Assembly (NCBI RefSeq): GCF_003574835.2
Contig: NZ_CP063196.1
Location: 3,162,001-3,226,000, forward strand
DNA: 64,000 nucleotides
Direction: 5' to 3'
Source of the DNA: Thermobifida halotolerans
GTDB lineage: Bacteria > Actinomycetota > Actinomycetes > Streptosporangiales > Streptosporangiaceae
The notes beneath the pieces were generated by a model, which was not told where the DNA came from, did no database searches, and saw only the letters and a list, made by a program, of their open reading frames with translations. The translations under genes and the position numbers were made by a program. This document shows, one piece after another, positions 6,028-27,066 of this stretch (within the stretch, counting starts at the first letter, position 1; each line of letters opens with the position of its first letter).

Positions 6028-6939
6028 CTAGCTCTCGTCGAGACTGATCCGGTTGGCCAGCGGCTCGCCCGCGGCCCAACGACGCAACTGCTCGTCGACG
6101 AACCGCCTGGCCCGGGGATAGAAGGCAGCGGCCCCCCCGGCCACATGCGGAGTGAGGTAGACACCGGGGGCGCCCCACAACGGATGTCCGGGAGGCAGCG
6201 GTTCGGGATCGGTGACGTCCAGCGCGGCGCGCACCCGCCCCTTCTCGGCGAGCAGTGCCGCGGTGTCGACCACCGGCCCCCGGCCCACGTTCACCACGAG
6301 AGCGCCGTCCGGCAGCGCCGCGAGTTCGGTTCCGCCGATGAGCCCCTCGGTCTCAGGGGTGTGCGGGGTGGCGACCACGACGACGTCGGTGTCGGGCAGC
6401 AGTTGGTGCAGGTGCTCGATCCCGTACACGCCCGAGGCCGGACGGGCGCGGCGGGCCAGGCGCAGCACGGTGGCCTCGAAGGGCAGCAGCCGCGCCTCGA
6501 TGGCCGCACCGATGCTGCCGTAGCCCACGATGAGCACCCGGCAGTCGGCGAGAGAACGGGTGTAGTGCGGATTCCACACGTGCTTCTGCTGGTCGGCTGC
6601 CCATCGGGGGAGGTCCCGCTGCGCGGCGAGGATGAGCGCGACGGCGTGCTCCGCGGTGCTCGCGTCGTGCAGTCCGCGTCCGTTGTACAGTCTGACGCCC
6701 CTCGGCAGGTCCGCCAGGACGTGCTCGTAGCCCGCGGTGAGCAGTTGGACCGCCCGCAGCCGGGGCATCCGCCGCATCAGTCCGACCCGCTGGACCCGGC
6801 CGTAGGGAACGACGTAGAAGACGACGTCGTCAAGGACGTCGGCAGGCGGTTCGCCCTGACCGTCGTAGACCTCCACGGTCAGTGCGGCAGGAGCGTTCTC
6901 CCTGTTCTGCTCCCAGGGCACCAGCACCCGCCCGTCCAC
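6028..6939 (-). CDS. D-isomer-specific 2-hydroxyacid dehydrogenase
   Basis: This is a cytoplasmic NAD(P)-dependent oxidoreductase of about 303 residues. The start is taken as GTG 6939, preceded by GGAGGAG; an upstream GTG at 6984 is also in frame. The Rossmann loop is VGYGSIGAAIE (about residues 135-145). All three catalytic residues are present: Arg in VNVGRGPVVD, Glu in DVTDPEPLPPGHPLW and His in LTPHVAGG. The set fits family members that reduce 2-oxo acids, but substrate cannot be read from sequence. It is transcribed alone and divergently from the lipid kinase at 7111. It contrasts with the catalytically stripped homologue at the start of the window. Confidence 0.9.
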   Translation of the reverse strand: MDGRVLVPWEQNRENAPAALTVEVYDGQGEPPADVLDDVVFYVVPYGRVQRVGLMRRMPRLRAVQLLTAGYEHVLADLPRGVRLYNGRGLHDASTAEHAVALILAAQRDLPRWAADQQKHVWNPHYTRSLADCRVLIVGYGSIGAAIEARLLPFEATVLRLARRARPASGVYGIEHLHQLLPDTDVVVVATPHTPETEGLIGGTELAALPDGALVVNVGRGPVVDTAALLAEKGRVRAALDVTDPEPLPPGHPLWGAPGVYLTPHVAGGAAAFYPRARRFVDEQLRRWAAGEPLANRISLDES

Positions 6940-12611: not shown

Positions 12612-12677
12612 ACCGTCCGCATTGCGGCGGTGACGGGCGCAAACACCCTTGTGGTCCTGCCGAGTCCGAAAACCCTC

Positions 12678-12683
12678 TAGTCT
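12678..12683 (+). promoter_or_regulatory. -10 element of an apparently leaderless promoter
   Basis: TAGTCT fits the actinobacterial TAnnnT -10 pattern and ends 7 nt before ATG 12691, which has no Shine-Dalgarno sequence. This arrangement suggests transcription starts at the initiation codon. No convincing -35 is seen. Confidence 0.45.
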
Positions 12684-12690
12684 GTCGCCC

Positions 12691-14304
12691 ATGGGTGGAT
12701 CGATCGAGCCAGGCTGGTACGCGGATCCCGAAGGAACTCCGGACCAGCTCCGTTGGTGGAACGGCAGCGAGTGGACGCAGCACGTCCGCACGCTGTCCGA
12801 GTTCACCTCAGATCAGCACGCCGCCGAAGGCTCGGCGGCAACCGAGAACCTGACCGACTCGGGCGACGGGACCGGCCCTGACCAGGCGACCGTCGATCTC
12901 AGCGGCGGCCCCTCCCCCGTCGACGCCACCATGCGCATCGACCCCCCGGCGGCCCCCACCCCCGACCACGACGACGAACCCACCGCCGACCTCTCCCCGC
13001 AGGCTCCCCCGACGGACCACGCCGACCAGGCGACCGTCGATCTCAGCGGCGGCCCCTCCCCCGTCGACGCCACCATGCGCATCGACCCCCCGGCGGCCCC
13101 CACCCCCGACCACGACGACGAACCCACCGCCGACCTCTCCCCGCAGGCTCCCCCGACGGACCACGCCGACCAGGCGACCGTCGATCTCAGCGGCGGCCCC
13201 TCCCCCGTCGACGCCACCATGCGCATCGACCCCCCGGCCGCCCCCACCCCCGACCACGACGACGAACCCACCGCCGACCTCTCCCCGGATGCCCCCGGCT
13301 CCCGCCTCCCCGGTGACGCGGGAGCCGACGACGCTCCGAAGACCGCGGTGTTCACCCCCGACGACGCGCCCCGGACCGCGGTGTTCAACCCCGGCGATCC
13401 GATGTTCACGCAGGCGGCCGAGGGCGGGAGCGCCGAGGAGGACAAGGACGGCGGCAAGTTCAACAAGTTCCTCGGCAACCTCAGGGAGGGAATCCAGGAC
13501 TACCGGGCCGAACTGGCCGAGGAACGGAAGAAGCGCCAGGAGGAGCAGCACCGCAGGGCCGAGAAGGAGGCGGAGGAGCGTCGCAGGCGCGCCGAGGAGG
13601 AGCAGCGGCGCGAGCAGGAGGCCCAGGCCGCCCGCGCGTCCGCTCCGGAGGGCTCCTCCCCCCACCGGCCGGGTGACTCCGGCACCGGAGAGCCCCCCGC
13701 GGACCGCGCACGTCCGGCAACCGCCCCCTCGGGGCCCACCCCTGGCCACGCCCCCTCCGGCCCCAACGCCGGTTATCCGCCGGTCTCCCCTCCCAAGCAG
13801 ACCCCCCACCCCGGCGCCCCCCAGCGGCCGTACCCGTATCCGCCGCAGACAGGACCGCAGCAGGGCTCCGTACCGGCCTACCCGGCGCAGCAGTACCCAC
13901 CCTCCCGTCCGAATCCGGCGTCCCCGCCACACCAGCCGGTGCGCGGGCACGGCGCGGCACCGTCCCCGTCCGGGGGCTACCCCGCGGTTCCCCCCGGCCG
14001 CCCGCCGCAGGGTCAGATGCCCGTGCCGTACAACCGCGGCGGTCAGCCCCCGCGGGGAGTGCCCGGACAGCCCCAGGTTCCCGGACGGCCCCAGTGGGGC
14101 CCCGGTCAGGGCGGAAGCCCGTACCCGACACAGCCTCCCGCCCCCCGGAAGAAGAAGGGCGGCTGCTGCGGCTGCGGCTGCGCCTCCATGCTCATCATCC
14201 TCGTGGTTGTGCTGGTGGCCTTCGGGCTCGGCACCTACCTGTGGCTTGAGGAGAACGGACTGCTGGTCGCGATCTTCGGACACCCGAGCCTCGTGGGCCT
14301 GTGA
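12691..14304 (+). CDS. DUF2510 membrane protein with tandem acidic repeats and Pro-rich region
   Basis: The 537-residue protein starts at ATG 12691 (MGGSIEPGWYADPEG). Residues 1-40 are a DUF2510 domain (PGWYADP, LRWWNGSEWT), common near the N-terminus of actinobacterial membrane proteins. Residues about 64-200 are three 48-residue repeats containing SGGPSPVDATMRIDPP and DHDDEPTADLSP. Residues about 265-310 form a charged coiled coil (EERKKRQEEQHRRAEKEAEE). A long Pro/Gln/Tyr-rich stretch follows (about 325-485). A KKKGGCCGCGC motif then precedes one C-terminal transmembrane helix (IILVVVLVAFGLGTYLWL). The repeats and coiled coil are probably cytoplasmic, making it a membrane-tethered scaffold. 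Function is unknown. Confidence 0.8.
   Translation: MGGSIEPGWYADPEGTPDQLRWWNGSEWTQHVRTLSEFTSDQHAAEGSAATENLTDSGDGTGPDQATVDLSGGPSPVDATMRIDPPAAPTPDHDDEPTADLSPQAPPTDHADQATVDLSGGPSPVDATMRIDPPAAPTPDHDDEPTADLSPQAPPTDHADQATVDLSGGPSPVDATMRIDPPAAPTPDHDDEPTADLSPDAPGSRLPGDAGADDAPKTAVFTPDDAPRTAVFNPGDPMFTQAAEGGSAEEDKDGGKFNKFLGNLREGIQDYRAELAEERKKRQEEQHRRAEKEAEERRRRAEEEQRREQEAQAARASAPEGSSPHRPGDSGTGEPPADRARPATAPSGPTPGHAPSGPNAGYPPVSPPKQTPHPGAPQRPYPYPPQTGPQQGSVPAYPAQQYPPSRPNPASPPHQPVRGHGAAPSPSGGYPAVPPGRPPQGQMPVPYNRGGQPPRGVPGQPQVPGRPQWGPGQGGSPYPTQPPAPRKKKGGCCGCGCASMLIILVVVLVAFGLGTYLWLEENGLLVAIFGHPSLVGL
12880..13287 (+). repeat. Three tandem 144-bp coding repeats
   Basis: Copies begin at 12880, 13024 and 13168 with a constant period of 144 bp (48 codons). 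The first two are essentially identical at the DNA level. The third differs by a synonymous-type change and diverges after 13287. The near-identity of synonymous positions points to recent duplication or ongoing unequal exchange, so copy number probably varies among strains. Confidence 0.95.
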
Positions 14305-15034: not shown

Positions 15035-15107
15035 GCGGACCACTCCCAGAACCCGGTAGTATTCTGCTGAACGCAGACGCCGACCGCGGTCCGGCTCCGC
15101 GCTCATG

Positions 15108-15183
15108 GTGGGTGTAGCTCAGTTGGCAGAGCACCTGGTTGTGGTCCAGGTTGTCGCGGGTTCAAATCCCGTCACTCACCCCA
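15108..15183 (+). tRNA. tRNA-His (GTG anticodon)
   Basis: The gene folds as a cloverleaf. The acceptor GTGGGTG (15108-15114) pairs with CACTCAC (15173-15179) with one G-U. The anticodon stem CCTGG/CCAGG encloses anticodon GTG at 15141-15143. The T-arm is GCGGG TTCAAAT CCCGT. The discriminator C15180 is followed by an encoded CCA (15181-15183). A G at 15107 can supply the extra G-1 typical of tRNA-His. A TAGTAT hexamer at 15057-15062 may be its -10 box. Confidence 0.97.
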
Positions 15184-16813: not shown

Positions 16814-17599
16814 ATGAACCCCCGTCAACGACGCGGCGTTCTGCTCATGATCGTCGCCGCCCTCGGCGCGGTCCTCGTGTTCTTCACCGTCGTCTCGTAC
16901 GTCAACACGCTCAGCAGCGAACTGGGCACCTACCGGACGGTTCTGCGGCTCACCCAGGATGTCGACCCCTACCAGCCGATCACCGAGGACATGGTCGAGC
17001 CCTACGAGGTCCCCGCCAAGTTCTTCGACGAGGAGGTCTTCCTGACGAACCTGGCCGAGGCCGACGAGTCCCTGACCCAACCGGGCAGTGAGGCGGTCTC
17101 CTCGACCTTCCTGCAGGAGGGCACACTGCTGCAGAAGAGCATGGTCATCCCCGCCCCCGCGCTGGAGAGCGGAGAGCGCGAGATCGCGATCATGATCAAC
17201 GCCGAGACCGGTGTGGCGGGGAAGGTGTCCCGCCAGTCCAGAGTGGACGTCTACGCCACCTTCCAGCCCAACGACCAGTCCAACGCCTGCGCGGTCCGCA
17301 TCCTCACCGACGTGGAGGTGCTCGACGTGGGAGACATCGGGTCGCAGATCGACGCGCAGACCGGCGGCACCAACGCGGTCGTCCCGGTCACCTTCCGGCT
17401 CACCCCCGAACAGGCGCTCCAACTCACCTACGCCGAGGCGTTCGCCTCCAAACTCCGCCTGGCACTGGTCAGCGCGCAGGGCTCGGGCGCCCCGGGCGAC
17501 CTCGACTTCTGCGCCGAGGACCAGTTGGCCGCCATCGGACAGCAGGGCGACGAGGACGGAACGGACAGCGACCCGAGCGGCACCACCGGCGGCAACTGA
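16814..17599 (+). CDS. cpaB: Flp pilus assembly protein CpaB/RcpC
   Basis: This 261-residue protein is anchored by one N-terminal helix (about residues 8-28, GVLLMIVAALGAVLVFFTVVSYV). A SAF-like domain follows (about 45-115: 'DVDPYQPITEDMVEPYEVP', 'STFLQEGTLLQKSMV'), then a CpaB/RcpC domain ('IAIMINAETGVAGKVSRQSRVDVYATF', about 130-230). The tail is Asp/Gly/Ser-rich. In Gram-negative Tad systems CpaB sits near the secretin; here, with no outer membrane, it presumably acts outside the membrane as a periplasm-like scaffold. Start ATG 16814 has GGAGC nearby. It is 40 bp upstream of the TadZ fusion. Confidence 0.88.
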   Translation: MNPRQRRGVLLMIVAALGAVLVFFTVVSYVNTLSSELGTYRTVLRLTQDVDPYQPITEDMVEPYEVPAKFFDEEVFLTNLAEADESLTQPGSEAVSSTFLQEGTLLQKSMVIPAPALESGEREIAIMINAETGVAGKVSRQSRVDVYATFQPNDQSNACAVRILTDVEVLDVGDIGSQIDAQTGGTNAVVPVTFRLTPEQALQLTYAEAFASKLRLALVSAQGSGAPGDLDFCAEDQLAAIGQQGDEDGTDSDPSGTTGGN

Positions 17600-17639: not shown

Positions 17640-19247
17640 ATGAGCACATACCAGGTCCTGATCGGCGTTCCCACCGACGAACTGGAGGACGTCCTCACGG
17701 CCAGGTTCGAGGAGATCCCCGACGCCGGCGTCGTGGGCGTGCACCGCTCGTCCCGGGAACTCGTCGAGAGTGTGGCCGGCATCCCCGGTCTCGACGTGGT
17801 ACTGGTCCACGGGGATCTCGGCCCGATACCGGTGTTCGACCTCATCCGGGACATCTCCCGCAGCCACCCCCAGCTCGCGGTCATCCTGATCGTGGACGAG
17901 GCGGCGCCCGACACCTTCACCAACGCCATGGAGGCGGGCGCGCGCGGCCTCCTCCAGAGCGACGCCACGGTCGACGAGCTCAGAGCCCGGGTCGCCCACG
18001 CGGCCGAGTGGTCACGGACCCTGCGCCGCCATCTGGAGGCCGCCTCCCTGGACCTTCCACTGCCGGGGCGCCGCGGCCAGATCGTCACGCTGACCGGCGC
18101 CAAGGGCGGGGTGGGCACCACCACCACCGCGATCCACCTGGCCAGGGTCGCGGCCAAGGCGGGCCGGATGGTCTGCCTGGTCGACCTCGACCTGCAGTCC
18201 GGCGACATCCCCGGCTACTACGACCTCAAGCACCGCCGCAGCATCGTGGACCTGGTCGAGGCCGCCGACGACATCAGCGCCGCCATGCTCGCCGAGACCC
18301 TCCACGTCCACCACGACGGGCCGCACATCCTGCTGGCTCCCGTGCACGGCGAACACGGCGAGGACGTCACCGCGCGCGCGGCCCGCCAGATCCTGGGGGC
18401 GCTGCGCTCACGCTACGACCTGGTGATCATCGACTGCGGTTCCTCCGTCAACGACGCGACCGCGATGGCGGTGGAACTGTCCGACACCTCGGTGGTACTG
18501 GTCACCCCCGACCTTCCGGCGCTGCGCGGAGCCCAGCGGCTCATCGCGATGTGGGGGCGCCTGCAGATCCGCGACACCAAGAACGTCACGGCCCTGCTGA
18601 CCCGCCACAGCCGGAGGAACGAGATCCAACCCGACTTCGCCCGCAAACTGCTGGGCACCGAGATGCTGCGCACCACCGTCCCCGCCGCCTACCGCGCGCT
18701 GGAGGAGGCGTCCAACACCGGAACCCCCGACCGGCTCACCGACGAGGGACTGCTCAAGGCGTTCGGTCGGCTCGCCGCAGAACTGGGAATGCTCACCCCG
18801 GCCCACGACGGCGGTCCCGCCGCCCCCCTGGGGGAGGCCGCCGAGGGGGTGTCGGCGCGCCGCCTGCGCGGCAGGGGGGATTCCGGCGCCTCGATCGTGG
18901 AGTTCGCCTCACTCGTGCCGTTCCTGGGGCTGGCCCTGTTACTGGCCTGGCAGATCGTCCTTCTCGGAGTGACCGGTCTGTACGCCTCGCACGCGGCCGG
19001 CGAAGGCGCCCGGCAGGCGTCCATCACCCCCGACGACTCCGAGGCGATCCTGGAGGCGGCCACCAAACGGGTGCTTCCCCCCTGGGACGAGGAGGGAACC
19101 TTCCGGCTGGAGCAGGTCGCGGTGGACGGCAACACCTACGTCGAGGTGACGATCGCGATGCCGGCGGTGCTGCCGGGCGTGGACAGCCCCTGGGACATCA
19201 GCAGCCGGTCACTGGTCTTCCCGGAGGGGGGAACCGATGCCGCGTAG
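17640..19247 (+). CDS. TadZ/CpaE ATPase fused to a C-terminal TadE-like pseudopilin
   Basis: This is one continuous 535-codon frame. Residues 1-130 are an atypical receiver-like domain (VLIGVPTDELEDVL, DVVLVHGDLGPIPVFDLI). Residues about 145-385 are a MinD-type ATPase with deviant Walker A GAKGGVGTTTT (about 154-164) and Walker B-like YDLVIIDCGSS. This is the usual end of TadZ, which localises Tad machines. Here the frame continues into RGDSGASIVEFASLVPF (cleavage-type Gly416, Glu421), a hydrophobic helix and a TadE-like periplasmic domain to residue 535. An internal GTG at 18849 (codon 404) has purine-rich sequence upstream and could give a separate TadE. The 3' end overlaps the next tadE-like gene by 11 bp. 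A rare TTA Leu codon lies in the helix. Confidence 0.88.
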   Translation: MSTYQVLIGVPTDELEDVLTARFEEIPDAGVVGVHRSSRELVESVAGIPGLDVVLVHGDLGPIPVFDLIRDISRSHPQLAVILIVDEAAPDTFTNAMEAGARGLLQSDATVDELRARVAHAAEWSRTLRRHLEAASLDLPLPGRRGQIVTLTGAKGGVGTTTTAIHLARVAAKAGRMVCLVDLDLQSGDIPGYYDLKHRRSIVDLVEAADDISAAMLAETLHVHHDGPHILLAPVHGEHGEDVTARAARQILGALRSRYDLVIIDCGSSVNDATAMAVELSDTSVVLVTPDLPALRGAQRLIAMWGRLQIRDTKNVTALLTRHSRRNEIQPDFARKLLGTEMLRTTVPAAYRALEEASNTGTPDRLTDEGLLKAFGRLAAELGMLTPAHDGGPAAPLGEAAEGVSARRLRGRGDSGASIVEFASLVPFLGLALLLAWQIVLLGVTGLYASHAAGEGARQASITPDDSEAILEAATKRVLPPWDEEGTFRLEQVAVDGNTYVEVTIAMPAVLPGVDSPWDISSRSLVFPEGGTDAA

Positions 19248-19623
19248 CCCCTCCCGCTCCGGTCGCCGCAGACCCGGCCGCCGTGACGACCGCGGCTCCC
19301 AGATCCTGGAGTTCGCCGTCTATTTTCCGCTGTTCCTTCTGATGGCGGCGGTCGCGTTCGAGGTGTTCCTCGCGTTCGTCGCCGTGGAGCACGCCGAGAA
19401 CGCCGCCCGCGTCGGTGCCCGCACGGTGCAGCGGGACGGCCCCCTCGGCGCGGTCGGGGTGATCCGGGACGCGCTCCCGGACTGGCTGGACGACGCCCAG
19501 GTCCGCGCGGGGGTCACCGCCGACCGCACCGCCTACGCCGAGGTCGAGATCGCCCTCCCCCTCTTCTTCGAGGTGGCCGACCTCGACTACACCGTGGTCC
19601 GTCGCGTGGACATGGCCGCATGA
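19237..19623 (+). CDS. TadE/TadF-like minor pseudopilin
   Basis: The 128-residue protein has a basic leader (MPRSPSRSGRRRPGRRDDRG) and a prepilin-type site after Gly20 followed by SQILEFAVYF, with Glu at +5. A hydrophobic helix (FPLFLLMAAVAFEVFLAFVAV) follows, then a short extracytoplasmic domain. This fits TadE/TadF minor pilins, which are processed by the prepilin peptidase and needed for Flp assembly. It overlaps the preceding gene by 11 bp, implying coupled translation, and is followed 40 bp later by the ATPase gene. Confidence 0.85.
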   Translation: MPRSPSRSGRRRPGRRDDRGSQILEFAVYFPLFLLMAAVAFEVFLAFVAVEHAENAARVGARTVQRDGPLGAVGVIRDALPDWLDDAQVRAGVTADRTAYAEVEIALPLFFEVADLDYTVVRRVDMAA

Positions 19624-19663: not shown

Positions 19664-21016
19664 ATGGCACTCAAGGACCGTCTCAACGAGGACCGCATCG
19701 CCGACCAGCACGCCGACCGCGGCAGCGTCGCCCACTGGCGCCAGCGTCTGCTGAGTGAGATCAACCTCGACGACCTGGCCATGCTCAGCCTCGAGCAGCG
19801 CCGCATCCGCCTGGAGAAGGTCGTCGGCCACATCCTGTCCCGCGAGGGGCCGGTGCTGTCCGACCGGGAACGCAGCAACATGATCCGCCGGGTCGTGGAC
19901 GAGGCGCTGGGCCTGGGAGTGCTCGAACCGCTGCTGGCCGACGAGAGCGTCACCGAGATCATGGTCAACGGCCCCGACAACATCTTCGTGGAACGCCGCG
20001 GCCGGGTCGAGCGCCTCGAGACCACCTTCGCCAGCGAGGAGCAGCTCTACCAGACCATCGACCGGATCGTCTCCGCGGTGAACCGCCGGGTCGACGAGTC
20101 CAGTCCGATGGTGGACGCCCGGCTGCCCACCGGTGAGCGGGTCAACGTGATCATTCCGCCGCTGTCGCTGTCGGGGCCGGTCATCACGATCCGCCGTTTC
20201 CCCAAACCCTTCACCTTCGAGCAGCTGGTCTCCATGGGCAGCATCGACCAGGCCACCGGGGTGCTGCTGTCCTCGCTGATCCGCGCCCGTCTCAACGTGG
20301 TCGTCTCGGGCGGCACCGGCACCGGCAAGACCACCTTCCTGAACGCGCTGTCGGCGTTCGTGCCCTCCCACGAACGCATCATCACCATCGAGGACTCCGC
20401 CGAACTGCAACTGCAGCAGGAGCACGTACTGCGGTTGGAGTCGCGCCCGCCCAACATCGAGGGCGAGGGCGCCATCACCATCCGCGACCTGGTGCGCAAC
20501 TCGCTGCGCATGCGTCCCGACCGCATCATCGTCGGTGAGGTCCGCGGCCCCGAGACCCTCGACATGCTCCAGGCGATGAACACCGGCCACGACGGCTCCC
20601 TGACCACCGTGCACGCCAACTCCTCCCACGACGCCGTGCACCGTCTGCTGACTCTGGCCTCCATGAGCGAGGTCAAGGTCCCCTTCGAGGCACTACGCGA
20701 CCAGATCAACGCGGCGATCGACGTCATCGTGCACCTGTCCCGGTACCCGGACGGATCCCGCCGGGTGGCCGAGGTGTCGATGGTGGCCTCCACCCGCCAC
20801 GAGGAGTTCCGCCTCGAACCGCTGCTGCGCTTCGAGGCGCACCGCTACGAGACGGGCCGCAGGGTCACCGGCGACTTCCGCCGTTTTCCGCTGCCCCGGA
20901 ACATCGCCTCGCGCCTCCACAGCTCGGGCGAGACGGTTCCGGCGGCGTTCGGCGTCCGGTCCGCGCACTCCGCCCCGTTCCCCAACGGTCTGTCCTCCCC
21001 CGGAGGTTCGCTGTGA
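19664..21016 (+). CDS. cpaF: Tad pilus assembly/secretion ATPase TadA (CpaF)
   Basis: This 450-residue hexameric motor belongs to the GspE/VirB11 superfamily and energises Flp pilus assembly at the inner face of the membrane. The N-terminal domain (about 1-130) is followed by the catalytic core: 'ESVTEIMVNGPDNIFVERRG', Walker A GGTGTGKTT (about 216-224), Asp box 'ITIEDSAELQLQQEH', Walker B RIIVGEVRGPE, and the His box TGHDGSLTTVHAN. The final 40 residues are not conserved. It overlaps the tadB start by 4 bp. Confidence 0.96.
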   Translation: MALKDRLNEDRIADQHADRGSVAHWRQRLLSEINLDDLAMLSLEQRRIRLEKVVGHILSREGPVLSDRERSNMIRRVVDEALGLGVLEPLLADESVTEIMVNGPDNIFVERRGRVERLETTFASEEQLYQTIDRIVSAVNRRVDESSPMVDARLPTGERVNVIIPPLSLSGPVITIRRFPKPFTFEQLVSMGSIDQATGVLLSSLIRARLNVVVSGGTGTGKTTFLNALSAFVPSHERIITIEDSAELQLQQEHVLRLESRPPNIEGEGAITIRDLVRNSLRMRPDRIIVGEVRGPETLDMLQAMNTGHDGSLTTVHANSSHDAVHRLLTLASMSEVKVPFEALRDQINAAIDVIVHLSRYPDGSRRVAEVSMVASTRHEEFRLEPLLRFEAHRYETGRRVTGDFRRFPLPRNIASRLHSSGETVPAAFGVRSAHSAPFPNGLSSPGGSL

Positions 21017-21942
21017 TCTACCCGCTGGTCATCATGCTGGTCACGATCGCCGTCCTGGCCGTGGCCGTGTGGGGCTTCCTCGTCTACATGGACGGCGTGG
21101 CGCAGCGCCGGCTGCTGGCCGCACGCAGCGTGCTGGACGAGGTGGAGCGGCGGGCCAACACCCCGCTGGCGCGTCTGGACGTGTGGCTGCGCCGCACCGG
21201 CCCGGGCCACCAGGTCGAGATCCGGCTGGCCCGCGCGGGAGTCAAGACGAGGGTCGCCACCTTCGTGCTGCTGCTGACGGGCACGGCGGTGGCCGCGGTC
21301 GTCCTGGTCTGGCAGGTCCTCGCCCCGCTGCTGGGCGTGCTCGCGGCCGGTCTGGTGGGTTTCCTGTTCCTGGCCTACCTGCGCCAGCAGGAGGAGAAAC
21401 GCCGTGAGCTGTTCACCGCGCAACTGCCGGAGCTGGCCCGTGTGCTGTCCAACGCCACCCAGGCGGGGCTGGCGCTGCCCACCGCGATCGACATGGCCGC
21501 CGACGAGCTGGACGATCCGGCGGGAACGGAGCTGCGCCGTGTCGCCGAACTGCTCAAGGTCGGCCAGCCCCTGGAGAGCGCCCTCGTCGACCTGCGGGAG
21601 CGGATGCCCTCACGGGAGATCGGGGTGCTGGTGTCCACCCTGCTGGTCTCGTCCCGTTCCGGCGGCGCCCTGGTCACCGCGCTGCGCACCATCTCCGAGA
21701 CGCTGGAGAACCGCAAGGAGAACCGGCGTGAGGTCCACACGATCCTGAGCGAGACCACCAGCACGGCGTGGGCGCTGCTGATCATGGGCATCGGGTCGCT
21801 GTTCCTGCTGAACGCGCTCATGCCGGGGTCGGTGCAGCGGATGACGGAGACCCCCGCCGGACTGGCCGTCCTCGCCGTCTCCCTCTCCCTGTTCGGTGTC
21901 GGGTTCGTGGCGATCCGTCGCCTGGCCCGCATGGACTCCTGA
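21013..21942 (+). CDS. tadB: Tad pilus platform protein TadB
   Basis: The 309-residue polytopic inner-membrane protein has a T2SSF (GspF-like) domain. There is one N-terminal helix (about 2-24), a pair of helices at about 76-122, a cytoplasmic T2SSF segment ('FTAQLPELARVLSNATQAGLALPTAIDMAADEL', 'LLVSSRSGGALVTALRTISETLENR') and two C-terminal helices. It forms the platform with TadC on which the TadA ATPase acts. The start is GTG 21013, overlapping the end of cpaF (GTGA), which implies coupled translation. Confidence 0.93.
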   Translation: MIYPLVIMLVTIAVLAVAVWGFLVYMDGVAQRRLLAARSVLDEVERRANTPLARLDVWLRRTGPGHQVEIRLARAGVKTRVATFVLLLTGTAVAAVVLVWQVLAPLLGVLAAGLVGFLFLAYLRQQEEKRRELFTAQLPELARVLSNATQAGLALPTAIDMAADELDDPAGTELRRVAELLKVGQPLESALVDLRERMPSREIGVLVSTLLVSSRSGGALVTALRTISETLENRKENRREVHTILSETTSTAWALLIMGIGSLFLLNALMPGSVQRMTETPAGLAVLAVSLSLFGVGFVAIRRLARMDS

Positions 21943-21989: not shown

Positions 21990-22892
21990 ATGACCCTTGG
22001 TCTCCCCCTCGCCCTGGTGGCGGGGCTGGTCGGCGCGCTGTCCGTGGCCTGCTTCCTCTGGGGCGCCCACCTGGTGACCCGTCCAACCGCGGTCGCCGAG
22101 GACTTCGTTCCCGCCCTCCCGAAGAAGAAGCGAGAGGGCACGTTCCTCCTGCACCGCATCACCGAACTGCTGGGGCACCCCTTCGGCGCCACCCTGATGG
22201 ACCTGCTGGGCCCCGAGGGCCAGGCCCGGATCCAGAAACGTATCGACGAGGCGGGACGTCCCGGCGGGATCACCGTGCTGCGCTACGTCCGGCGCAAGAC
22301 GGGAGAGGTCCTGCTGTACGGCACGCTCGGGATCCTGTTCCTCCTCAACGACAGCCCCATGATCGCCCTGGTGGTCCTGGCCTTCACCCTGCTCAGCGAC
22401 ATCGTCCTGTACACCGCCAAGCAGCAGCGCATGGACGAGATCCAAAAGCAGCTGCCCGACTTCCTGGACGTCCTGGCGGTGACGGTGAGCGCGGGCCTGT
22501 CCTTCCGGCAGGCCCTGGCCCGGGTGGCCGACGCCATGCCGGGGCTGCTGGCGTCGGAGTTCCGGCTCGCGCTACGCCAGATGGAACTGGGCAGCAGCAG
22601 ACGCGAGGCGTTCGAGACGCTGCGCCGACGCAACCCCAACGAGTCGCTGGGTCGGTTCGTCTCGGCCTTCCAGCAGGCCGAGGACCTCGGGGCGCCGCTG
22701 GCGCAGACCCTGCTGAACATCAGCCTGGACATGCGCCGCGAGGACGCCCAGTACCAGCGCCGCAAGGCGGTGCGTCTCAATCCCCGGGTGACCGTGATCA
22801 CCGCCGCCACGATGCTCCCGGGCCTGCTCCTCCTCATCGGAGGCGGTCTGTTCCTCGGCTCCGGGATCAACCTGGCCGCCTTCTTCGGATGA
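21990..22892 (+). CDS. tadC: Tad pilus platform protein TadC
   Basis: The 300-residue partner of TadB starts at ATG 21990, after GGAGCTCTCCC. The N-terminal helix is 'LALVAGLVGALSVACFLWGAHL'. Two central helices (about 112-150) are followed by a T2SSF domain ('IQKQLPDFLDVLAVTVSAGLSFRQALARVADAM', 'RFVSAFQQAEDLGAPLAQTL') and a C-terminal helix 'TMLPGLLLLIGGGLFLGSG'. It is separated by 47 bp from tadB and by 3 bp from the sensor kinase gene, so all are probably one transcript. Confidence 0.93.
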   Translation: MTLGLPLALVAGLVGALSVACFLWGAHLVTRPTAVAEDFVPALPKKKREGTFLLHRITELLGHPFGATLMDLLGPEGQARIQKRIDEAGRPGGITVLRYVRRKTGEVLLYGTLGILFLLNDSPMIALVVLAFTLLSDIVLYTAKQQRMDEIQKQLPDFLDVLAVTVSAGLSFRQALARVADAMPGLLASEFRLALRQMELGSSRREAFETLRRRNPNESLGRFVSAFQQAEDLGAPLAQTLLNISLDMRREDAQYQRRKAVRLNPRVTVITAATMLPGLLLLIGGGLFLGSGINLAAFFG

Positions 22893-22895
22893 GCC

Positions 22896-24101
22896 GTGGA
22901 CGAGAAGGGGACTCCCGCGCCGGTCCGGTCGACCGGACCGGTTCGGCTGCTCGTCCGGTTGCGCTTCCTGCTCACCGGTATCGCGCTGCTCCTGCTGCCT
23001 CCCGAACGGGTCTCCGTGGGAATCGTCGTGATGCTGACCGGCTACGCGGTGTTCTCCTGGCTGCTGTCCCGCTACTGGGAGCGGCTCTCGCCCCACGCGT
23101 CGCGCTGTCTCCCGCTGATCGTCGCCGACACCTTCGTCGCCTCGGCGATCCTGGGAGTGGGCGGCCCGTCGGGAGCCTTCTTCCTGGCCACGCTGTTCAC
23201 CAGCACCGCCGCGGGGGTGCGGTACGGGGTCAGGGGCGTGGCCGGAGTCTCCACCCTCCAGGTTCTCGGCTACCTGGCGGCGGTGTTCGTGCCCTCGGGC
23301 GGTCCGGTGGAGGCCGGAGCCACGGTCTGGACGGGGGTGCAGGTCGTCGTGGTCCATCCGCTGCTCTACCCGGTCGCCGGGCACATCGGGCTGCGGCTGC
23401 GCGGCCTGTTCGAGGAGTTGACGTCGGAGCAGGAACGGCGGCGTGTCGCGGAGCGTGCGGCGGCGGCGGCCGAGGAGCGCACCCGACTGGCCCGGGACAT
23501 GCACGACTCGGTGGCCAAGACCCTGCGGGGCATCGCCCTGGCCGCCCAGGCCCTGCCGCTCTGGCTGGAACGGGACCCCGAACGTGCGGCGGCCACCGCC
23601 GCGCAGGTGGTGGCCGCCGCCGGGACCGCGGTGCGGGAGATCCGGGAGCTCATCACGGACCTGCGGGAGAGCCCCGCTGGTCCGTCCGTCGCGGACGGCG
23701 TCGCCGCGGTGCTACGCGAGTGGTCCGCCCAGACCGGGGTGGCGGCCGGACTGTGCGTCCGTGGCACTCCGCTGCCGCTGCCGGTCGTCGCCCGGCACGA
23801 GACCGTCGCAGTGCTGCGCGAGGCCCTCACCAACATCGACCGGCACTCCGCGGCGGAGACCGTCACCGTGGAACTCGCCGCCGAGGCGGAACACCTGGTC
23901 ATGACGGTCCGTGACAACGGCCGGGGGTTCGATCCCGTCCTCCCCCTCCCCGGCCGCTACGGCCTGGTGGGCATGCGCGAACGCGCGGCCCGCGCCGGAG
24001 GCTCCCTGACCCTCACCTCGGCCACCGGATCGGGAACCACCGTGACCCTGCGTGTCCCGATGGCGGACACGCCCTCCGAAGACCGCGAGCCGTCCCCGTG
24101 A
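22896..24101 (+). CDS. NarL-family sensor histidine kinase in the Tad operon
   Basis: The 401-residue kinase starts at GTG 22896, only 3 bp after tadC. Residues about 15-165 contain several membrane helices with short loops and no recognised sensor domain. Residues about 190-260 are a HisKA_3 dimerisation domain with phospho-acceptor His203 in ARDMHDSVAKTLRG. Residues about 300-392 form a HATPase (N-box EALTNIDRHSAA, G1 VRDNGRGFD, G2 GLVGMRERAARAGG). It should phosphorylate the LuxR-type regulator encoded immediately downstream. Position inside the pilus operon suggests it senses an envelope or surface cue that controls pilus production. Confidence 0.92.
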   Translation: MDEKGTPAPVRSTGPVRLLVRLRFLLTGIALLLLPPERVSVGIVVMLTGYAVFSWLLSRYWERLSPHASRCLPLIVADTFVASAILGVGGPSGAFFLATLFTSTAAGVRYGVRGVAGVSTLQVLGYLAAVFVPSGGPVEAGATVWTGVQVVVVHPLLYPVAGHIGLRLRGLFEELTSEQERRRVAERAAAAAEERTRLARDMHDSVAKTLRGIALAAQALPLWLERDPERAAATAAQVVAAAGTAVREIRELITDLRESPAGPSVADGVAAVLREWSAQTGVAAGLCVRGTPLPLPVVARHETVAVLREALTNIDRHSAAETVTVELAAEAEHLVMTVRDNGRGFDPVLPLPGRYGLVGMRERAARAGGSLTLTSATGSGTTVTLRVPMADTPSEDREPSP

Positions 24102-24124
24102 TCCCGAAGGAGACTCCTCCCCCC

Positions 24125-24799
24125 ATGTCCCCGATCACCGTTCTCGTCGTGGACGACAACATCGTCGTCCGCGCGGGCCTGCTCGCCCTGCTGGAGACCT
24201 CCGACGACATCCGGATCGCCGGCGAGGCGGGAAACGGCGTCCAGGCCGTGGAGAGGGCCCGGCAGCTCCGCCCCGACATCGTGCTGCTCGACGTCCGCAT
24301 GCCGGTGCGCGACGGAGTCAGCGTGGTCGAGGAACTCGCCGAGCTGGCCAAGGTGGTCATGCTCACCCACACCGAGGATCCGGAGGTCGTTCGGACGGCC
24401 CTGCGCCGGGGAGCCTCCGGCTATCTGGTGCACGGCCACTTCACCCTGGAGGAACTGGGGCACGCCCTGCGGGAGGTGGCGCGCGGCACCGGCAGTCCGC
24501 TCTCGCCCGTGGCAGCGACCGCCCTGGTCACCTCACTCCGCTCCGCCTCGACCGCTCCCGGCCCGGCCGACCCCGCTGCCCTGGGCCTGACCGGCCGGGA
24601 GGCCGAGGTACTCGGGGCGGCGGCGCGCGGCCTGTCCAACGCGGAGACCGCCCGTGAACTGTTCCTTTCGGAGAAAACCGTGAAGAACCACATCAACCGA
24701 ATTTTCCGGAAGCTCGGCGTGGGCACCCGGGCAGCCGCGATAGCCCGGTGGAACGGACACGCGCTCCCCGATCCGAAGCCCTCGTCCGGGCCCACTTGA
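24125..24799 (+). CDS. LuxR/NarL-type response regulator
   Basis: This is a 224-residue regulator. I choose ATG 24125 (MSPITVLVVDDN), as the receiver fold starts there; a GTG at 24098 that overlaps the kinase stop is an alternative. The receiver domain has the acidic pair VVDDN, phospho-acceptor Asp56 in IVLLDVRMP and the switch Thr/Lys regions (MLTHTEDP). The C-terminal HTH is LTGREAEVLGAAARGLSNAETARELFLSEKTVKNHINRIFRKLGV in pattern. It is cognate to the kinase by adjacency and is the last gene before a likely internal promoter for the pilin, a natural target. Confidence 0.93.
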   Translation: MSPITVLVVDDNIVVRAGLLALLETSDDIRIAGEAGNGVQAVERARQLRPDIVLLDVRMPVRDGVSVVEELAELAKVVMLTHTEDPEVVRTALRRGASGYLVHGHFTLEELGHALREVARGTGSPLSPVAATALVTSLRSASTAPGPADPAALGLTGREAEVLGAAARGLSNAETARELFLSEKTVKNHINRIFRKLGVGTRAAAIARWNGHALPDPKPSSGPT

Positions 24800-24908: not shown

Positions 24909-25142
24909 ATGCCGAACCCGATCACCTCCCTCTGCGTCAAAACGCAGACCGCACTCACCGGTCGCCTACACGCTTCGCGTGCCCACCGCGACCGGGGCGC
25001 CGGTTTCGTGGAATACGCGGCCATCATCGTACTGGTGGCCGCGATCGCGGGGGCACTGTTCGCCAGTGGCCTCATCAGCGATATTACGAACGGAATTACA
25101 ACCAAGGTCTACGAGATCTTCAGCCTCACCCAGCAGCCCTAA
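24909..25142 (+). CDS. flp: Flp-type major pilin
   Basis: The 77-residue prepilin starts at ATG 24909 with a strong AGGAGGA site. The leader of 30 residues ends in RDRG. Cleavage after Gly30 gives a mature N-terminus AGFVEYAAII with the Flp hallmark Glu5-Tyr6. The remainder is one hydrophobic helix (IIVLVAAIAGALFASGLISD) and a short polar tail, about 47 residues in total. It is the probable structural subunit of the pilus fibre. The peptidase that would cut it is not encoded in this window. Confidence 0.92.
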   Translation: MPNPITSLCVKTQTALTGRLHASRAHRDRGAGFVEYAAIIVLVAAIAGALFASGLISDITNGITTKVYEIFSLTQQP

Positions 25143-25149
25143 ACTATTA

Positions 25150-25872
25150 ATGACACTGTTCTCAGAAATCCGCAGGAAAATCTCGCCGGGTTCTTCGCCA
25201 TCCGACGACAGCGGACAGGCCAACTTGTTCCTACTCGTCGGTCTGACGCTGGCTCTACTCGCGCTGAGTCTGCTCTTCATACGGTTGGGGGACGCCAACC
25301 AGTTGCGCAGTCAGGCGCAGACCGCTGCGGACGCCGCTGCTCTGGCTGCGGTCACGGTCTCCCGGGACCAGGCCGCCGAGATGCTGGCCGACAACCAGAT
25401 CCCGTATTCCCGGCTCTACGACCCCGCACGGGGCCGCGCCCAAGCGGAGAAGTACGCCCAGCAGAACGGAGCGATCCTGGAGGAAATTCGGGTCAGCGAC
25501 AACAGCATGGGGCAACTCGGCAATTTCGTCCGGGTGGAGGTCCGCGGCGCCAACTGCCGCAAAGAACTCGAGGAGGACCGCAGCCGCGGCTGGTCGGACA
25601 CGGTCTGCGCGGACGCGGATGGAAACGGCGGCTTCGCGCGGATCGGCAACGCCTCGGCCATCGCCCAGATGGTCATGCCCGACTGCCACTACGTCTTCGC
25701 CGAGTCCCAGATCTTCGGGGTCGAATGCGACGGACAACTGGTCCAGAGCGAGCAGCACGCCCGCACCCTCATCAACATCCGCCTGGTATCGGCGGAGGGA
25801 CGCTACCTCTACAAACCTCTTGACGTAGCCGATAATGAAGAAGAGGAGAGTACTCCCACCCCGTCCCCCTAA
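25150..25872 (+). CDS. TadG-like pilus protein (PF13400-type N-terminus)
   Basis: The 240-residue protein starts at ATG 25150, 7 bp after the pilin stop. Residues about 22-70 match the TadG/TadE-like signature: SGQANLFLLVGLTLALLALSLLFIRLGDANQLRSQAQTAADAAALAAV in pattern, i.e. a hydrophobic helix followed by a QTAADAAALA block. The usual Glu+5 is absent (QANLF), as in TadG proteins. The extracytoplasmic part has four Cys (NCRKE, VCADA, DCHYV, VECDG) that may form disulfides. It is likely a membrane-anchored minor component or adhesin of the Flp pilus. The final residues already fall in sequence of reduced GC. Confidence 0.82.
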   Translation: MTLFSEIRRKISPGSSPSDDSGQANLFLLVGLTLALLALSLLFIRLGDANQLRSQAQTAADAAALAAVTVSRDQAAEMLADNQIPYSRLYDPARGRAQAEKYAQQNGAILEEIRVSDNSMGQLGNFVRVEVRGANCRKELEEDRSRGWSDTVCADADGNGGFARIGNASAIAQMVMPDCHYVFAESQIFGVECDGQLVQSEQHARTLINIRLVSAEGRYLYKPLDVADNEEEESTPTPSP

Positions 25873-26004
25873 GATTGCACCTATTCATCCAGATACCCTC
25901 TCATCGCCGGAACCTTGTTATCAAGTCTTTTCTCCTGTCCCTAGTCGAATCCAGTTCCGTTGGCTAGGCTGATGAGTTGTCTGTTCTCGATTGGAAGGCT
26001 GTCC

Positions 26005-27066
26005 GTGGACCGACTGAGACCCAAGTCTGGTTTTCCCTATATTCTTCGACTGCTTCTACCGGTCATGTTGGGCACGGCACTGCTATCTTCCTGCGTCTCT
26101 GTTCCGGACGGTTCAGAGCCTTCTGTCACCACTACAGGCAGCACTGGGAACGACGAAGCCAGCGGTTCCTTCAACACCGAGGAGACCGAATCCTCCATTT
26201 CCTCTTCTATTTCGAGCGCAACCCCCGAAGGAGACCGTCTCAAATTCGACATCTTCTCCCTGGAGCGCCACTCAGCAGACCTTCTTGTATTGAAAATGCG
26301 GATTACCAACACAGGACAGGAAACCGCACATGTCTTTCGGACTCTCGCAGACCCTGAAGGAGAAATGGCAACTCCTGACGGTGTCTCCCTAGTCGATATG
26401 CAAAACAATAAGCGATACATGCCGTTCACCTTGACTGACGGAGAAACCTGCCACTGCTCCAACTGGAGAGGTCAAGAAAAACTCGCCCCTGGTGGAAATA
26501 TTGACATCTGGGCAGCCTTCCCTTCCCCGCCTGAGTCCGTTGAACTCGTAGCAGTGACTACCCCAGCCACCCCTGACTTTCTTGATATACCAATTACCGA
26601 GGCGACCTCGCCCGATTCGGCTATTGTGGACACACCGACATCCGAACCTCGGGTCTTGGATCTGCGGGCATTCCAAGATGACATGGACGGAAATAGTTCT
26701 CGTACCGAGTCAGCTGAGGAGACCAGCATCATGCTCTCCTCTGATGTGCTTTTTGGCTTAAATGAGGCGACTCTCACCGAGGCAGCTGAGGAGGCGCTTC
26801 GGAACGTAGCCGAGGAGATCAATTCCTCCTCCGGCACCACAATTCAAGTTAACGGCTACACCGACGACACCGGCAGCGACTCAATCAATAACCCGCTCTC
26901 CCAGAAGCGCGCCGAGGCTGTGGCATCTAGGCTCGAAGAACTTGTCACCCGGGATGGAATTACATTCGAAGTATCCGGGCACGGATCCGCTGACCCGGTG
27001 GGCGACAACTCAACCGAAGAGGGCCGAGCAAAGAACCGTCGCGTTACCGTTACCTTCACCAAATAA
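26005..27066 (+). CDS. Lipoprotein with CxC domain and C-terminal OmpA domain
   Basis: I place the start at GTG 26005, 6 nt after GGAAGG; TTG 25960 and ATG 25972 are in frame but give an odd extension. The product is 353 residues with lipobox LLSSC (Cys30). Residues about 70-205 are a beta-type domain containing DGETCHCSNWRG and a PESVEL strand; the same features recur in the next gene. Residues about 245-353 are an OmpA/MotB-like peptidoglycan-binding domain (SSDVLFGLNEATLTEAAEEAL, GYTDDTGSDSINNPLSQKRAEAV, GRAKNRRV). An OmpA domain on a Gram-positive lipoprotein would tether a surface component to the wall, fitting a pilus base. GC content is far below neighbours and TTA codons occur, suggesting transfer. 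Confidence 0.85.
   Translation: MDRLRPKSGFPYILRLLLPVMLGTALLSSCVSVPDGSEPSVTTTGSTGNDEASGSFNTEETESSISSSISSATPEGDRLKFDIFSLERHSADLLVLKMRITNTGQETAHVFRTLADPEGEMATPDGVSLVDMQNNKRYMPFTLTDGETCHCSNWRGQEKLAPGGNIDIWAAFPSPPESVELVAVTTPATPDFLDIPITEATSPDSAIVDTPTSEPRVLDLRAFQDDMDGNSSRTESAEETSIMLSSDVLFGLNEATLTEAAEEALRNVAEEINSSSGTTIQVNGYTDDTGSDSINNPLSQKRAEAVASRLEELVTRDGITFEVSGHGSADPVGDNSTEEGRAKNRRVTVTFTK

Follow-up and report, generated by a model that had tools for sequence, protein, structure and literature searches.

A TadZ-TadE fusion gene in Thermobifida halotolerans and its relatives, and its possible reading as a prepilin with a giant leader

Thermobifida halotolerans carries a gene in which a TadZ-type ATPase is joined in a single reading frame to a TadE-like pseudopilin. 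TadZ is a cytoplasmic protein presumed to position Tad pili, and the small pseudopilin part is predicted to span the membrane. The gene lies within a tad pilus cluster in a 64,000-nucleotide stretch of contig NZ_CP063196.1 (positions 3,162,001 to 3,226,000 of the forward strand; hereafter the window, whose own numbering we use). The fusion is genuine and far from unusual: homologous loci are fused in 69 of 128 cases. Conservation at the junction suggests that the gene product may be a TadE prepilin that has TadZ as a giant leader and, once inserted with its N-terminus inside the cell, is cut after Gly416, a reading to which we assign a probability of roughly 0.6. We found no description of a TadZ-TadE fusion in the open literature, though subscription literature lay mostly outside the search and a mention elsewhere is possible. 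A conserved natural fusion of this kind points to a direct partnership of the two proteins in a fixed ratio.

Architecture of the fusion protein

The frame runs without an internal stop from its ATG to its TAG (17640-19247, forward strand) and encodes 535 residues, ordered from N to C terminus as an atypical receiver, a MinD/ParA-type ATPase, a disordered linker and a TadE-like pseudopilin (Table 1). A sequence-only reading of this DNA had already named the uninterrupted frame, the receiver-like domain, the MinD-type ATPase, the motif G-ASIVEF with Glu at +5 and the TadE-like segment, and all five hold up under the comparisons below. The receiver is recognizable by fold: the predicted model of the protein has a (beta-alpha)5 fold over this domain, and the top Foldseek match to the whole model, the two-domain Eubacterium rectale protein 3fkq (E = 9e-12), extends over both receiver and ATPase. 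Pfam Response_reg scores 25.4 bits, below its cut-off of 30.2; the N-terminal atypical receiver domain expected of TadZ/CpaE proteins is identified from the model fold and the 3fkq match. Inspected by eye, the domain (17640-17999) reads VVLVHGDLGP at what we presume, from the response-regulator family, to be the place of the phospho-acceptor Asp, and it is probably a pseudo-receiver. We take 3fkq to be TadZ. An atypical ATPase plus a receiver domain, as given for the E. rectale TadZ structure (PMC13170226), is consistent with this identity.

Assignment of the second domain to the MinD/ParA type is firm (AAA_31, E = 5.1e-18). It carries the signature lysine of the KGGxGT motif that characterizes TadZ/CpaE ATPases, and residues K155, G156, G157, G159 and T161 are invariant in 25 fused proteins. 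The Ssd/CpaE_hom_Actino model (TIGR03815) aligns with the ATPase part over residues 128-374, but the fusion falls outside that subfamily, at 66.7 bits against a cut-off of 154.45. Like E. rectale TadZ (3fkq, the top fold match) and Caulobacter CpaE, it is encoded in a tad cluster. Known TadZ, however, is a separate cytoplasmic protein, whereas the present chain continues into a membrane helix and a pseudopilin. Because the ATPase frame is continuous with both, free TadZ could arise only after cleavage.

The junction has the form of a prepilin processing site. Residues 389-414 are predicted to be disordered (predicted local distance difference test, pLDDT, <50) and a long helix begins at residue 415. 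The class III signal is complete (RRLRGRGDSG/ASIVEFASLVPFLGLALLLAWQ, the slash marking the predicted cut), with basic residues ahead, G416 at -1, then A-S-I-V-E421 with Glu at +5, and a stretch of ~20 hydrophobic residues; the hydrophobic helix comprises residues 417-440. The protein's own score against PF07811 (TadE), 18.4 bits alone and 21.8 in the genome search, stays below the gathering cut-off of 22.9. Nevertheless, 23 of 24 homologous segments match TadE at E ≤ 0.01, and the segment is 32% identical to the product of the next gene, itself a Pfam TadE. Modelled alone, it is predicted to form a helix (residues 2-46) and three strands with a pLDDT of 92.8, which may correspond to the pilin 'lollipop' fold; Foldseek returned no significant match to this fold in the PDB (best E 0.26, with pseudopilins only at E 0.29-1.1). 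It shares with TadE/TadF pseudopilins the class III cut site, Glu5, a predicted long helix and small beta domain, and a place before tadA, but its leader would comprise 416 residues with two folded domains, whereas the leaders of the 59 split relatives measure 5-94 residues with the start codons chosen.

Fused and split layouts across relatives

Fused genes are frequent among relatives and extend beyond the class. Counting loci with an identical ATPase stretch once, we distinguished 128 homologous loci, of which 69 are fused and 59 are split into two adjacent, mostly overlapping genes. At family level, matches occurred in 93/250 genomes; the 74 with strong matches were examined together with named loci, the 19 with distant ATPases only (E above 1e-30) were left out, and the resulting 78 distinct loci divide into 45 fused and 33 split. 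The sequence-only reading had proposed a search for this domain order in other Nocardiopsaceae genomes. The class search matched 97/394 genomes. It gave 45 strong matches beyond the family, of which 40 were included (all but G417, G463, G529, G549 and G556), and family and class together have 59 fused and 59 split loci. At phylum level, 21/396 genomes matched at E ≤ 1e-60, and the nine outside the class all carry full-length fused copies (10/10 loci when a second copy in one genome is counted). The counts do not include a second copy in G209, and they treat L177 as fused, its nearest TadE being in the same frame. Fused copies were thus found in several families and, beyond the class, elsewhere in the phylum. 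Although fused proteins served to build the search profile, the ten out-of-class loci reach 306-443 bits with their ATPase part alone, and split genes would therefore also have been detected.

Several features indicate that the fusion is more than chance. All 26 rows of the window gene's clade are fused, and their linkers, totalling 1198 codons, contain no in-frame stop, versus 4 and 5 stops in the other two frames. Linkers range from 11 to 90 codons across fused relatives. A missed stop or a frameshift, introduced by sequencing or annotation, is accordingly ruled out by comparison as the source of the fusion: fused loci occur across genera, families and classes, and the deletion of 10 bases in one relative, from Thermobifida cellulosilytica (L030/L007), falls inside the ATPase domain. 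In that TB100 copy (L030 ~6450-6570, the same as L007/L008) the gap lies near codon 172 and shifts the frame, and either a pseudogene or an assembly error may account for it.

Relatives with two separate genes had been named beforehand as an observation that would speak against the fusion. Such relatives do exist, at 59 loci, and because of them the fusion cannot be required for function; the fusion itself stands, being common to whole clades. In 40/59 split loci the ATPase stop and the best TadE start overlap, and in 55/59 they are no more than 30 nucleotides apart, which places the two layouts one small indel apart, both with coupled synthesis. The ATPase tree of 127 rows (the half-length L007 was excluded both from the trees and from the column counts below) requires at least eight changes between fused and split, and well-supported branches force four of these. 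A fused ancestor is the more parsimonious one (root cost 8 for fused vs 10 for split), although the partition into gains and losses of fusion varies with the costs chosen and long branches leave the deep part of the tree unsure. The genomes are related, and the fused and split counts are not numbers of independent events. Spread of the fusion by plasmids or viruses was considered and rejected, with no match among 72,556 plasmid records at E ≤ 1e-20 and no relative in viral contigs.

Cleavage, tether or second start

The residue that cleavage would require is the best conserved one at the junction. Gly(-1) is kept in 69/69 fused proteins. When the 30 columns between -8 and +22 are followed along the tree (68 fused rows), it is the only one with 0 changes, compared with 9 at -3, 6 at +5 and 13 at +6. 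Glu(+5) is kept in 63/69 (the exceptions are L093, L094, L095, L097, L101 and L184). The same canonical site is present in 49/59 split loci, while the other ten have the Gly nearer the Glu. In these ten (L027, L028, L029, L031, L032, L103, L104, L106, L107 and L108) Glu stands at +3 or +4, and we refer to them as the Actinomadura type, the group name being a guess. The TadE of the next gene, found in 114 of 118 loci, has both Gly(-1) and Glu(+5) in 113 of them, and Glu +5 is therefore more relaxed in the fused or linked TadE than in its neighbour. According to a review, prepilin leaders are of variable length, end in Gly or Ala, remain cytoplasmic and are cut there by the peptidase, whereas Glu5, which pairs with the N-terminus of the adjacent subunit, serves assembly and is missing from the capping subunit (PMC10191384). 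Better retention of -1 than of Glu5 fits this division between cut point and assembly. A type IV leader peptidase gene (Peptidase_A24 over the cut-off) is present in 59/59 fused genomes checked. From the invariant Gly, the peptidase gene and the review's account of leaders (PMC10191384) we infer that the fusion is cut.

In the reading that we favour, the gene product would be a TadE-type prepilin with the entire TadZ ATPase, 416 residues long, as its leader. Insertion of the hydrophobic helix 417-440 would keep TadZ facing the cytoplasm and put the TadE domain outside, and TadZ would begin at the membrane, 1:1 with the pseudopilin through a flexible linker. The single chromosomal type IV leader peptidase would then cut after Gly416, yielding free cytoplasmic TadZ and a mature TadE with Glu5; the latter would join the pilus-initiating minor pilin complex, while TadZ would remain with the platform and TadA. 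The joint chain would place both proteins at one site in a fixed ratio. The disordered linker ahead of the site and the helix that follows in the predicted model support this course of events, as do the split relatives, whose overlapping genes, like the fusion, would link the synthesis of both products.

Several points weigh against cleavage of this kind. The cut at Gly416 is deduced from sequence and models, and we know of no tested prepilin leader of 416 residues with a folded domain. Some linkers have just 11 codons, perhaps tight for a membrane-adjacent peptidase, and Gly(-1) could be conserved for some other reason. Glu is absent at +5 from 16/128 TadZ-linked TadE parts (6 fused; 10 split, with the shorter spacing), which makes ordinary filament entry doubtful for these. 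Finally, the rows are related, so that 69 fused proteins do not amount to 69 independent events.

The sequence-only reading had set out three options without choosing among them: a cut at Gly416, a tether, and a second product from an internal start. The cut is the best supported, given Gly(-1) in all fused proteins, the peptidase gene in all genomes checked and the repeated switching between fused and split layouts. Its main rival is a permanent tether, in which the fusion stays uncut or is only partly cut and TadZ is held at the membrane and the machine by the helix, which would take over from the C-terminal amphipathic helix of CpaE. We regard this as possible but unlikely. CpaE is bound to the membrane by that helix, around the motor and with minor pilins at the platform above, according to PMC13170226, and a cytoplasmic and a membrane protein are likewise fused as PilM-PilN in Clostridioides difficile (PMC6916266); the six fused forms without Glu5 would also suit a role outside the filament. 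However, no reason is known why a pure tether should require Gly(-1) to be invariant, and 59 relatives manage without a covalent link. An internal start is more improbable still. Ribosomes would also start at the GTG at 18849 (codon 404, 18849-18851), so that a short TadE prepilin is made alongside the full-length protein; the codon is present, as had been pointed out, and has a 5-base Shine-Dalgarno (SD) match. Similar ATG codons with an SD occur in L009 and L019, and 14/45 fused linkers contain a start with SD, where synonymous shuffles lead one to expect 9.0. Yet 23/45 fused homologues have no ATG, GTG or TTG in the linker, 31/45 have none bearing an SD, and the two in-genus relatives L005 and L007 lack a linker start codon. 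The GTG is thus not conserved, and an internal start is rejected as a general mechanism while being possible in the window species.

An extension of the cleavage reading, which we offer tentatively, is that cutting constitutes a checkpoint. A site-bound TadZ dimer would deliver one initiating TadE each to the nascent pilus machine; TadE would prime the filament only after the cut at Gly416, and TadZ would stay with the motor. A model for Caulobacter has CpaE dimers surrounding the motor CpaF and, before extension, the minor pilins at the overlying platform (PMC13170226). By analogy with the capping subunit that lacks Glu5 (PMC10191384), and since its Glu5 is relaxed, unlike that of the next gene's TadE, the TadE of the fusion may be a priming or tip subunit. 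If the checkpoint were true, a ParA/MinD ATPase would be a pilin leader peptide that sets where and how many pili start, and the relaxed Glu5 would mark the fusion's TadE as the tip or priming subunit.

Two fusions of other pilus-machine proteins, PilM-PilN and TadB-TadC, are the nearest precedents that we found. PilN is no prepilin, and there is consequently no peptidase site between the PilM and PilN parts, unlike the one predicted in TadZ-TadE; TadB-TadC likewise differs in joining two platform proteins without a cut site. Both resemble the present case in other respects: PilM-PilN, of C. difficile type IV pili, joins a cytoplasmic machine protein to a membrane partner (PMC6916266), and TadB-TadC, of Micrococcus luteus tad-2, unites adjacent tad genes of an actinobacterium (PMC4322843). 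How the Tad assembly complex of monoderms holds at the membrane, and whether TadZ replaces PilM-PilN-PilO, has been posed as a question (PMC6916266). If the fusion is indeed cut, prepilin peptidase can act behind a folded 400-residue domain, which would widen the notion of a prepilin, and searches for short N-terminal leaders may overlook prepilins with leaders of such length.

The tad cluster and its surroundings

The fusion gene is the second of a tad cluster in the order cpaB, fusion, tadE-like, tadA, tadB, tadC, flp-like and tadG-like (Table 1).

Table 1. Features of the fusion gene and of the surrounding tad cluster, in window positions (a slash marks a predicted cleavage site)
Feature	Position	Strand	Evidence or remark
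cpaB/rcpC	16814..17599	+	TIGR03177 89.4 bits, over cut-off
Whole TadZ-TadE fusion gene	17640..19247	+	ATG to TAG, 535 aa
Atypical receiver-like domain, residues 1-120	17640..17999	+	Response_reg 25.4 bits; (beta-alpha)5 model; 3fkq match spans domain
MinD/ParA-type TadZ ATPase domain, residues 147-383	18078..18788	+	Motif KGGVGTTT; AAA_31, CpaE_hom_Actino, 3fkq
Linker, residues 386-415	18795..18884	+	Disordered, basic near end; pLDDT <50 for 389-414
Internal GTG, codon 404, candidate second start	18849..18851	+	5-base SD match
Gly416, -1 residue of predicted prepilin cleavage site	18885..18887	+	Gly in 69/69 fused homologues, 0 changes on tree
TadE-like pseudopilin, residues 417-535	18888..19244	+	Glu +5, long helix, three-stranded sheet; TadE in 23/24 members
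Second TadE-like pseudopilin, G/SQILE	19237..19623	+	PF07811 30.3 bits; 11-base overlap with fusion gene
tadA ATPase	19664..21016	+	T2SSE 8.8e-68; TIGR03819 340 bits
tadB platform protein	21013..21942	+	T2SSF
tadC platform protein (start inferred)	21990..22892	+	T2SSF, DUF5936
Flp-like major pilin, 77 aa, G/AGFVEYA	24909..25142	+	Sequence; DUF4244 weak
tadG-like protein (start inferred)	25150..25872	+	PF13400 29.0 bits on 25195-25869

The genome has one Peptidase_A24 match, a 272-aa frame at C1:635316, outside the tad cluster and beside a gene that is presumably aroC. In actinobacteria, tadV usually lies far from the other tad genes (PMC4322843). A second pair of TadE-domain genes at C1 ~2342876-2343384, following a gene that by eye looks like one for a platform protein, is probably a second tad-like locus. 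Within the cluster, a HisKA_3 histidine kinase and a LuxR-type response regulator lie at 22896-24799, between tadC and the pilin gene, and directly downstream of the tadG-like gene there is an OmpA-domain protein (25960-27066), in a Gram-positive genome. Upstream of the cluster, a tRNA-His (GTG) occupies 15108-15183, so that the open reading frame at 15105 is not a gene. Farther upstream, the frame at 12649-14304 looks like that of a proline-rich protein with a single hydrophobic helix near its C-terminus and contains a tandem repeat at 12880-13287 (144-base unit, 2.8 copies, 99% matches).
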